In this document: piece after piece, positions 5,798 through 9,057 of the stretch
Layout of the letters: every line of letters starts with the position of its first letter
Position numbering within the stretch: the stretch's first letter is position 1
Assembly: GCA_947466965.1 (NCBI GenBank)
Contig: CANIFU010000009.1
Span: forward strand, 1 to 63,662
Origin: Bacteroidota bacterium
GTDB lineage: Bacteria > Bacteroidota > Bacteroidia > 2-12-FULL-35-15
Direction: 5' to 3'
Length of the DNA stretch: 63,662 bases
Position numbers and translations under genes: made by a program
Notes under the pieces: generated by a model
Databases searched by the model: none
What the model saw: the letters and a program-made list of their open reading frames with translations, nothing else
Told to the model about the DNA's origin: nothing

Positions 5798-7732
5798 TCA
5801 ATCCTTCACTTTGTGTATCCAAATAAATCCATTTTTATTTTCGATTTTTTCAATTAATCCTTTTTCAAAAAGTTCTTCTATAATTGTTTCAGCTGATTTA
5901 ATTGAGATATCGTTTAAAAAAGCAAATTCACTTGTGGTCATGTTATTATACTTTTCAAACAAATGGATCCCACTAAGACTCCATTTCTTTTTTACGGCTG
6001 AAGGAATTAACTGCTGAATTACTTCCTCAAATTTTGAATATGATTGAATACCTTTTAAGGTTAATTTCTTTTCTAATGCATCAACAAATAGAAATGTTGG
6101 GAAAGAAGTGATTTCATTTTCTTCTGTTAAACGCAAATCTTCTTGGAAATGTTCAATTGCTTTACCTTTCATATCCTTCAGGAGAATAGACGAATCCAAT
6201 CCGCAGCCCAATGCAGCATTTTCAATCCATTCTAAATTTGTAATGTTTTTTTTCTCAAGAAATAACATTTCTTTTAAGCGTCTCAGAAACAAAATAGCCT
6301 TCTTTTTATTTTGCAGTTGCGCAGCCTTAAAAGCTATAGAAGGTGGGAAAGATGAATTTAATGGATCTTCAAACCAAACATCTCCATCCAATGGAATAGA
6401 ATGGTTTTTACTCACATCTTCCCAATGTAGCGCCGCATCTGAAGGGTTCTTAATAACCCCTTTGTCGTAACCAAGCCATGACGGAAGTAATCCTCCCATG
6501 TGATATTCAATATTTAGATAATCATCATATTCTAATTTTAATTTTCTTAAAATTGGTTGAATCACCCAACAGCTTGAACAAACGGGGTCTGTGAAATACA
6601 AAACTTTTAGTGGTTTTATTAATTCATCAACACAATTATCTTCCTGATCCGAAACTAAAGGGACAATATAGCCTCGCTCGCTATACAATTTTGGATATAA
6701 AAACAGTCTTTTCAATTCCCTTCCTTGTTCAATGTGGCTCGCTAAGTTGATGGATCTGTTATTGTAAAAGGAAGTGAAAATATTTTCACTATCATCAAAT
6801 TGCTCAAAAAGTGAAGCAAGTGCATTTGCATCCAAAATAGCATTTGTTGTTCCAGCACTTGTAAAAGGTAATGCCAAATGTGCGGCATCTCCAATAAGAG
6901 CGATGTTGTTTTTATGGAAAGCTGGAAGTACGTCAAAGTCGCGTGTATTCCATACATATGTTTTTGAAAAATTATTCGCATCAAGAATTTCTGTTACTTC
7001 ACTTGGAAAATCTTTCAGCATTTCTTTACAAAATAAACGCAATTGCTCAGGACTCGTGTCTTCGTGGCCATCACTGAAAGTGGCATCATATTGCATAAAC
7101 CATACTACTTCATCAGCAGAAACGGGAATAAATCCAAAGGCTAAGCCCTTTTCTTTACTTTGATATTTTTGAAATACTGCTGCTTGCTGATTCGCAATCG
7201 AACTTTTGCTAGAAATACCTACAATTTCCTTTACATCTATATTGCTAAAATTTACTTTACCAAAAAGAGTATCACGCACTTTAGAATTACTTCCATCAGC
7301 CCCAATAAAAATATCACCATATTCTATATCACCATTTTCAAATACAGCTGCAACTGCTTTTTCGTTTTCGAAAATAAAATGCGAAAAAACGCGACCTTGT
7401 TTTAATGTATTACTATCTAATAATGAATAGAAGAAAGAAATTAAACTGGATCGCTTCATGCAATACCATCCTTCTAATTGAATTTTAATCAATTCTTCTT
7501 CATCGATTTTTTTTAAACTAAATTGATTAACCTTTTTGGATAGCAGAGGAACGTTGGCATCAGGAAAGAAATCTTTTATGATAGAATAACCATCAGCACT
7601 CATTAAAAAAGCGTGCCCTCTTCCTTCAATACCAATAGATTTTTCATTTACAACTACATCGATATTTTTTCTGCGTAACAAAATGCCTAATGTGAGACCA
7701 GCTATACCGCCTCCAATTATTACAACTTTCAT
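5798..7732 (-). CDS. FAD-dependent monooxygenase fused to a DsbA-like thioredoxin domain and a winged helix
   Basis: A 644-residue, apparently three-part protein. Residues 1-~350 form a PHBH/UbiH-type flavin monooxygenase: GGGIAG dinucleotide motif at 7-12, GADGSNSKVRD at 144-154 and the GDAAH FAD-ribityl motif at 281-285. Residues ~374-578 are DsbA/FrnE/SpxH-like: CSSC at 385-388 after TDP, and a cis-Pro-type SFPTF at 543-547. Residues ~585-644 look like a winged helix-turn-helix. No stop or frameshift interrupts it. The start overlaps the aminotransferase stop by 4 bp (ATGA), implying translational coupling. Substrate unknown. Confidence 0.85.
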   Translation of the reverse strand: MKVVIIGGGIAGLTLGILLRRKNIDVVVNEKSIGIEGRGHAFLMSADGYSIIKDFFPDANVPLLSKKVNQFSLKKIDEEELIKIQLEGWYCMKRSSLISFFYSLLDSNTLKQGRVFSHFIFENEKAVAAVFENGDIEYGDIFIGADGSNSKVRDTLFGKVNFSNIDVKEIVGISSKSSIANQQAAVFQKYQSKEKGLAFGFIPVSADEVVWFMQYDATFSDGHEDTSPEQLRLFCKEMLKDFPSEVTEILDANNFSKTYVWNTRDFDVLPAFHKNNIALIGDAAHLALPFTSAGTTNAILDANALASLFEQFDDSENIFTSFYNNRSINLASHIEQGRELKRLFLYPKLYSERGYIVPLVSDQEDNCVDELIKPLKVLYFTDPVCSSCWVIQPILRKLKLEYDDYLNIEYHMGGLLPSWLGYDKGVIKNPSDAALHWEDVSKNHSIPLDGDVWFEDPLNSSFPPSIAFKAAQLQNKKKAILFLRRLKEMLFLEKKNITNLEWIENAALGCGLDSSILLKDMKGKAIEHFQEDLRLTEENEITSFPTFLFVDALEKKLTLKGIQSYSKFEEVIQQLIPSAVKKKWSLSGIHLFEKYNNMTTSEFAFLNDISIKSAETIIEELFEKGLIEKIENKNGFIWIHKVKD

Positions 7733-8892
7733 TTTATTACACTTTTAATTCGATGTATTGCTTCGTTTAAAATTTGATCAGATGTTGCGAAACTCATTCG
7801 AATATATCCATCGGCGCCATCACCAAACCATTTTTTTAAACCAGGTACAACTGCCACCTTGGCTTCTTTCAAAAGAAATTCCTGTATTTCTTGACTCGAT
7901 TTATTTGTTGCTGTGATATTTGTAAAAGCAACGTAACAACCCTCGGGGGCCACACAACTAAACCCGGGTATCGTATTGAGTTCATTCACAAGCAAGGTGC
8001 GCATGGAAGTTAGATGTTTCAAGAAATCGCTTAACCAATAGTCACATTTTGTTAATGCAGTAGTTGCAGCTACCTGAGATAATACATTTGCTCCATGTAT
8101 CGTAGAATTATGTAAAGAGGCATCAATCAATTTTAAAAAATGATTTTGGTTGTGAGCCATAACTGCTCCAATCCGCAATCCAGCTAATCCGTATGATTTA
8201 CTGAAGCCCGTTATAGTAATTGTTCTATTTCTAATCTCTTGATCGATAGCAGCAATACTTGTAAAAACGTTTGGATAAAAAACAATATCACTCCAAATCT
8301 CATCAGATAAAATAATCAAATTATGTTTACAAGCTATAGTTCCTAATTGAATCAATTCGTCTTTCGTGAAAACTTTACCTGTCGGATTTAAGGGATTACA
8401 AAGACAAATAAGTTTCGTTTTATTTGTGATTAAGGTTTCCATTTGCTCGAAATTCACTTTTGAAGTCCCCGGAGGTATTGCAAAAGGAATTGCGACTGCG
8501 CCCACAGATTCGATTGAATAACGAAATAAAAAATCTACAGGATCAAAGATAATTGCTTCTTCGCCCGGTAAAAGAAAGGCCTTACATGTTAAAAATATTC
8601 CGAAGGCAGCACTGTCTACAGGAAAAGTAAATGCAGGAGAAACAGGTACATTTCGTTTTTTCTGATAATAATTTGCCATACTTTCCTTAAAATCTGGAAG
8701 ACCTTCAGGCGGTCCGTAGCAAAAATATCTGTCCTTTGTAAAAACGGAAATTGACTCCGCTATTTCGGGCGCACTCGGAAAATCAGGGTCTGCAGCTGTT
8801 AAAGGAATAACATCTGATGGGAATGTTGCCCAACGCAGATTGTATGCGCGTTTTTTTAAAAGTTCTAAATTAATGGAGTTGTTTTCAAACAT
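7729..8892 (-). CDS. Class I/II PLP-dependent aminotransferase
   Basis: 387 residues of fold-type I aminotransferase. Visible are the CNPLNPTGKVF motif, SDEIWSDIVF with the PLP-contacting Asp, the Schiff-base lysine in GFSKSYGLAGLRIG, and the C-terminal arginine region YIRMSFA. Substrate cannot be read from sequence; aspartate, aromatic, branched-chain or C-S-lyase-like activities are all possible. It is the first gene of a two-gene unit with the monooxygenase-DsbA fusion, so it may supply or consume an amino acid processed by that flavoenzyme (inference). The terminator of tRNA-Lys lies only ~35 bp upstream. Confidence 0.9.
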   Translation of the reverse strand: MFENNSINLELLKKRAYNLRWATFPSDVIPLTAADPDFPSAPEIAESISVFTKDRYFCYGPPEGLPDFKESMANYYQKKRNVPVSPAFTFPVDSAAFGIFLTCKAFLLPGEEAIIFDPVDFLFRYSIESVGAVAIPFAIPPGTSKVNFEQMETLITNKTKLICLCNPLNPTGKVFTKDELIQLGTIACKHNLIILSDEIWSDIVFYPNVFTSIAAIDQEIRNRTITITGFSKSYGLAGLRIGAVMAHNQNHFLKLIDASLHNSTIHGANVLSQVAATTALTKCDYWLSDFLKHLTSMRTLLVNELNTIPGFSCVAPEGCYVAFTNITATNKSSQEIQEFLLKEAKVAVVPGLKKWFGDGADGYIRMSFATSDQILNEAIHRIKSVIK

Positions 8893-8924: not shown

Positions 8925-8966
8925 AAAAAAAAAGCTCTCAAATCAAAAGATTTGAGAGCTTTTTTT
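8925..8966 (-). terminator. Rho-independent terminator of tRNA-Lys
   Basis: Perfect 12-bp stem (8933-8944 with 8949-8960), 4-nt loop, T-run on the minus strand from the A-tract at 8925-8933. It begins 19 bp after the tRNA 3' end. A T-run on the plus strand as well makes it bidirectional in form. Confidence 0.9.
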
Positions 8967-8984
8967 ATTGTTTAACCACTAACG

Positions 8985-9057
8985 TGATCCCGCTGGGATT
9001 CGAACCCAGGACCCCTACATTAAAAGTGTAATGCTCTACCAGCTGAGCTACGGAATC
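8985..9057 (-). tRNA. tRNA-Lys (anticodon TTT)
   Basis: A 73-nt cloverleaf is readable on the minus strand. The acceptor stem GATTCCG/CGGGATC pairs with one T-G wobble, the D-arm is AGCTCAGCTGGTAGAGC, the anticodon loop is CTTTTAA (anticodon TTT), and the T-arm contains GGTTCGAATCC. The discriminator is A and CCA is not encoded, so CCA is added post-transcriptionally. It is a single tRNA flanked by its own promoter and terminator. Confidence 0.97.

Follow-up and report, generated by a model that had tools for sequence, protein, structure and literature searches.

The window analysed here, a stretch of 63,662 nucleotides (positions 1 to 63,662) of contig CANIFU010000009.1 from a Bacteroidota bacterium of the class Bacteroidia (GCA_947466965.1), carries on its minus strand a pair of genes in which a class A flavin adenine dinucleotide (FAD) monooxygenase is fused to a complete homologue of YjbH/SpxH. 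The first gene of the pair (7729..8892) encodes a pyridoxal phosphate (PLP) enzyme of 387 amino acids, which has the aminotransferase class I/II fold and belongs to the PatB and aromatic aminotransferase group. The second gene (5798..7732) encodes the fusion protein of 644 amino acids. Both frames are intact, and they overlap by the stop/start sequence ATGA at 7729..7732, an overlap of 4 bp shared by 18 of the 23 distinct fusion loci that we collected. An earlier sequence-only reading of this DNA had described one unbroken 644-residue frame coupled by ATGA to an aminotransferase-type gene, and both features were found as it placed them.

The first part of the fusion protein (residues 1–345, 6698..7732, minus strand) matched the Pfam family FAD_binding_3 (E 4.4e-16, 59.5 bits against a cut-off of 22). 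It carries the GxGxxG, DG and GD motifs of class A flavoprotein monooxygenases as GGGIAG (residues 7–12), GADG..R (144–153) and GDAAH..P..G (281–294), and these motif residues showed no variation across the 23 fusions. All of the top 50 structures in the Foldseek fold search were monooxygenases. The domain shares its family, motifs and fold with HpxO, PRK06753, the tetracycline destructases, TrlE and NicC, but it is only about 18–20% identical to the solved members and forms its own clade with the PLP partner. Naming either the monooxygenase or the PLP enzyme by curated models was attempted and abandoned, as the best models all fell under their cut-offs. For the monooxygenase, no specific subfamily (HpxO, PRK06753 or tetracycline destructase) was reached, the best NCBIfam score being 111.2 bits against 365. 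A linker follows (residues 346–374, 6611..6697), in which the predicted local distance difference test (pLDDT) score fell below 50 at residues 351–370; the AlphaFold models were built from 11–13 sequences and had mediocre pLDDT values of 71.6 and 65.8.

The C-terminal half consists of a thioredoxin/DsbA-like domain (residues 375–577, 6002..6610) and a winged helix (residues 583–644, 5801..5986). Residues 379–569 matched Pfam Thioredoxin_5 (E 3.1e-47). The domain has the active-site motif CSSC at residues 385–388 (6569..6580), a CXXC motif of the kind found in many, though not all, YjbH/SpxH proteins, and SFPTF at residues 543–547, in which Pro545 (6098..6100) is invariant in the fusions, the standalone YjbH proteins and the bacilli. 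In a PDB sequence search, residues 372–639 aligned with residues 24–291 of Geobacillus YjbH (6ghb_B) over both the thioredoxin domain and the winged helix (E 1.6e-42 with the whole protein and E 3.5e-43 with the C-terminal half as query). Because this match spans both parts, the thioredoxin domain and the winged helix are not two separate accretions. By its sequence, the C-terminal half is one known protein, YjbH/SpxH, and the whole is a two-part fusion. YjbH usually consists of a thioredoxin domain, which contains a helical insertion, followed by a C-terminal winged helix (PMC7253607), and the winged helix therefore does not point to DNA binding. Of the sequence-only reading, the FAD monooxygenase was borne out as one of class A, as was the DsbA/SpxH-like domain with its two motifs. 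Its combination of three domains is correct as to the domains and the fusion itself, but the last two are already joined in YjbH/SpxH, and the DNA binding that it suggested for the last domain was not upheld. Its idea of a redox-sensing or sulfur-handling role is a possibility compatible with the data.

YjbH/SpxH is the ClpXP adaptor for Spx in Bacillota, and it resembles the fused half from end to end, including CXXCW. In the fusion, by contrast, YjbH makes up the C-terminal half of a flavin enzyme, with no yjbI haemoglobin partner seen beside it, and adaptor activity is putative. A monooxygenase followed by a C-terminal thioredoxin fold has precedent in HbpA, phenol hydroxylase and GrhO5 (PMC4515095, PMC9299503), where domain III sits directly on the monooxygenase and the key cysteine is missing in GrhO5 and many others. 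The fusion, on the other hand, bears a YjbH with CXXC and a winged helix, for which this layout offers no precedent; by sequence its C-terminal half is YjbH/Thioredoxin_5, and homology to domain III of PHHY/HbpA was not found.

The junction had been placed near position 6637, and an assembly error or frameshift there might be considered, as the window genome is a draft of 128 contigs. However, the same junction is present in 22 further fusions, all distinct and from separate assemblies, and its dN/dS (the ratio of nonsynonymous to synonymous substitution rates; residues 346–375) was about 0.1 in both comparisons that allowed its computation. An artefact is therefore a negligible possibility, and the fusion is real. 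In comparisons with loci L028, L030 and L032, dN/dS was 0.15–0.18 for the monooxygenase, 0.10–0.21 for the thioredoxin part and 0.35–0.44 for the winged helix, so that by these ratios purifying selection maintains both halves and the join, including the linker of low pLDDT.

The 23 distinct fusions were pooled from an even sample of 395 genomes of the class, from genome_contigs matches and from genome G533. They are 44–93% identical per domain and span at least seven family-level groups of Bacteroidia. As to how frequent the fusion is, a question raised by the sequence-only reading, it is rare but conserved: 11 of the 395 class genomes have it, while 47 others match only through other forms, nearly all standalone YjbH. 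In the window's order, represented in the collection by one genus, it was found in 4 of 36 genomes including the window genome. The forward fusions form a single clade in the YjbH tree (SH-like approximate likelihood ratio test, SH-aLRT, 98), which by sequence indicates their common ancestry. The genes flanking the pair vary between loci, except for flanks common to the window and L028. The patchy occurrence across Bacteroidia suggests horizontal transfer. No fusion covering 80% of the query was found on PLSDB plasmids. A viral origin was rejected, as two peptide patterns of the DsbA region had no match in viral_contigs; so was a defence system, for which PADLOC gave one weak match only, to the first 37 residues.

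The PLP enzyme matched Aminotran_1_2 (PF00155; E 2.6e-49, 168.8 bits against a cut-off of 19.7) and has the PLP lysine and the carboxylate arginine of this fold; Lys232 and Arg365 were invariant in all 26 PLP sequences aligned. Its closest solved relatives are the Pyrococcus-type aromatic aminotransferase 1dju and PatB 6qp3, with which it shares the fold, the catalytic lysine and the carboxylate arginine. It differs from them in a PVDFLF motif and in an invariant Trp200, a position occupied by Tyr in 1dju and by His in PatB; this replacement does not indicate one reaction type over another. The aminotransferase of the sequence-only reading thus held at the level of the PatB/aromatic aminotransferase group, but the enzyme reached no cut-off among the specific families listed. 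One may imagine a sulfur pathway proper. In this reading the PLP enzyme would act as a C-S lyase, and the cassette would process cysteine conjugates or introduce sulfur into an aromatic product, the thiol being handled by YjbH. The PatB C-S lyase model TIGR04350 was the best NCBIfam model for the enzyme, and PatB and conjugate lyases are among its nearest solved relatives. However, its 225.7 bits are far under the cut-off of 340, the annotation of the two best solved relatives is aromatic/aspartate aminotransferase, and SDEIW and GLRIG stand where PatB has SDEIH and GLQAS. We regard this explanation as improbable.

The PLP gene lies immediately upstream of the fusion in 21 of the 23 cases. Besides the 18 loci with the 4-bp overlap, the genes overlap by 1 bp in G268, are 2 bp apart in G230, where the PLP gene is cut by the contig end, and are 370 bp apart in L033. 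In the remaining two genomes (L037 and L038) a PLP relative of 51% and 48% identity, respectively, lies elsewhere, so that the question whether the aminotransferase always stands beside the fusion is answered by adjacency in most loci, not in all. Among the 395 sampled genomes, the monooxygenase family occurred in 14 (the 11 with forward fusions, G152, G348 and a reversed fusion in G237), and the PLP enzyme (E<=1e-90) also in 14, of which 13 are common to both. The monooxygenase genome without a full PLP match is G230, with its contig-cut copy, and G326 has the PLP enzyme with no monooxygenase adjoining. The co-occurrence gave a Fisher p of about 1e-22, with relatedness between genomes ignored.

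The reversed fusion of G237 has YjbH at residues 3–280 and the monooxygenase at 299–642, with the PLP gene next to it; a class search with this protein gave no second one. In G582, G631 and a Persicobacter plasmid, the monooxygenase and PLP genes are adjacent and the monooxygenase has no YjbH domain. The monooxygenase tree places these unfused proteins and the reversed form outside the forward-fusion clade, although their branches are long. The unfused monooxygenases of G348 and G152 lie inside that clade, and therefore the YjbH half was lost in both. Beyond the monooxygenase stop in G152, remnants of a decayed YjbH can be read, interrupted by several stops, and a standalone YjbH that is intact is encoded next door. 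These forms bear on the explanation that the YjbH half is a structural add-on which stabilises or oligomerises the monooxygenase, like domain III of the phenol hydroxylase-type enzymes. HbpA and GrhO5 do end in a thioredoxin-like domain whose role is structural or unknown (PMC4515095, PMC9299503), and some relatives (L057, L056) function without a fused YjbH. However, a structural role predicts neither a fusion in the reversed order nor a loss of CXXC restricted to genomes with a separate YjbH, and we consider it unlikely.

The first cysteine of the motif (Cys385) is present in 23 of 23 fusions and the second (Cys388) in 21, and both were found in 29 of 29 standalone YjbH proteins of Bacteroidota. 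In the two exceptions (G136 and G396) CSAS replaces CXXC, and an intact standalone YjbH lies beside each fusion. A separate YjbH is thus present in all four genomes concerned, namely the two with CSAS and the two that lost the fused YjbH (G152 and G348). On the other hand, 11 genomes with an intact fusion keep CXXC and have no other YjbH at E<=1e-10. The association by genome gave a Fisher p of 0.003. The sequences are suggestive of a fused CXXC or a fused YjbH being lost only in genomes that carry a separate YjbH. In Listeria, YjbH depends on its cysteines for function, and it is unsettled whether the thioredoxin motif of YjbH does chemistry (PMC7253607).

Taken together, we favour, at somewhat less than even confidence, the explanation that the PLP enzyme, the class A monooxygenase and the complete YjbH serve one redox pathway as a two-gene cassette, in which YjbH would act through CXXC-dependent thiol chemistry or contacts. 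A shared redox pathway is proposed because the cofactor motifs of both enzymes, CXXC and Pro545 are all retained and the three units are associated. We infer that the PLP enzyme would make or consume an amino-acid-derived compound, and that the monooxygenase would oxygenate a molecule of the same pathway using NAD(P)H and O2, the order of these reactions being presumed. The YjbH half, on its flexible linker, might undergo thiol-disulfide exchange with a substrate, product or partner protein, or bind one of these in a thiol-dependent manner. A stronger form, in which YjbH is a true thiol-disulfide enzyme wired to the monooxygenase, with electrons or a thiol intermediate passing between its CXXC and the monooxygenase reaction, seems doubtful to us. 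To our knowledge, such an exchange has not been described for YjbH or for this monooxygenase family. If it were true, it might indicate that an older role of YjbH was catalytic.

Several observations weigh against the favoured explanation. Neither G582 nor G631 has a YjbH anywhere in the genome at E<=1e-10, and so YjbH is not strictly needed beside the monooxygenase and the PLP enzyme. G226 retains both a fusion and a standalone YjbH, its fused copy having the longest end branch of the YjbH tree (1.36, the median being 0.23). With independent lineages as the unit, the association between CXXC loss and a standalone protein gave p 0.055. No neighbouring pathway gene or substrate was identified. 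In B. subtilis and S. aureus, Spx degradation does not require the YjbH cysteines (PMC7253607).

The last point also counts against the alternative of proteolytic control. In it, the YjbH half would be a ClpXP adaptor that brings a client to the protease, whether a member of the ArsC/Spx family, the PLP enzyme or the fusion protein, with turnover tracking the state of the flavin enzyme. An adaptor that works without cysteines does not account for a CXXC kept in 21 of 23 fusions. This alternative draws on the YjbH half being a full-length homologue of a family known as the Spx adaptor (PMC7253607). ArsC/Spx-family proteins were found in 10 of 13 fusion genomes, and the one of the window genome (L134) has a CXXC. 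However, the other three had no such match and the matches may be ordinary ArsC/YffB proteins. The search was uninformative as to a client. Proteolytic control is possible, and in our view less probable than the shared redox pathway.

The best-known role of YjbH is that of a protease adaptor. With both fusion orders, the same PLP partner and the loss of the fused CXXC only in genomes with a second YjbH, the fusions are a natural experiment that makes the question of its cysteines testable. Our literature searches, whose coverage left out most subscription papers, gave no account of a YjbH-monooxygenase fusion, and this fusion, which joins two known families and is faithfully accompanied by a third partner, is apparently undescribed. 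The cassette is an uncharacterised two-gene metabolic unit, patchy through Bacteroidia.

Some further observations were made at these loci. Directly upstream of the pair in the window lies tRNA-Lys(TTT) (8984–9057, minus strand), followed by a terminator-like hairpin at about 8926–8965. A tRNA-anchored island was rejected, as, of the loci scanned, only the window and L028 have this tRNA next to the pair. In G582 (L095, 5978–9917) and G631 (L096, 6237–10175), the unfused monooxygenase and PLP genes lie directly downstream of a gene judged by eye to be tryptophanase-like. In G136 (L075, 9472–12001), the PLP gene shares about 99% DNA identity with its counterpart in L029 and the fusion gene about 99% with that of G396, and this sharp switch at the gene junction reflects either recombination or a chimeric assembly.

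The standalone YjbH proteins of Bacteroidota, annotated as 'ClpXP adapter SpxH family protein' (Spirosoma WP_232563170.1), are 45–65% identical to the fused half and have the same CSxCW, but they form a separate group in the tree and have an N-terminal CX6C segment. This segment (L007, L008, L058, L061 and others) is NPLLCDPESGICEIP-like and often follows a signal- or lipobox-like stretch, which suggests an exported form, provided that the upstream start is correct. Among the standalone loci with flanks examined, several have an HxlR-family regulator with an early conserved cysteine, divergent from the standalone gene and confirmed by Pfam at L040, L083, L084, L090 and L117. HxlR proteins such as YodB sense electrophiles, and these neighbours hint at a stress setting for the standalone family. 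DoxX-type neighbours were seen at L086 and L088, and YceI also at L088. Finally, in three genomes with a degenerate fused YjbH, the standalone gene is adjoined by a gene for a lipoprotein-like, cytochrome c-like protein of 197 amino acids with CNDCH, recognised by eye (L075, 6780–7373; L076, 11329–11922; L080, 2322–2915).
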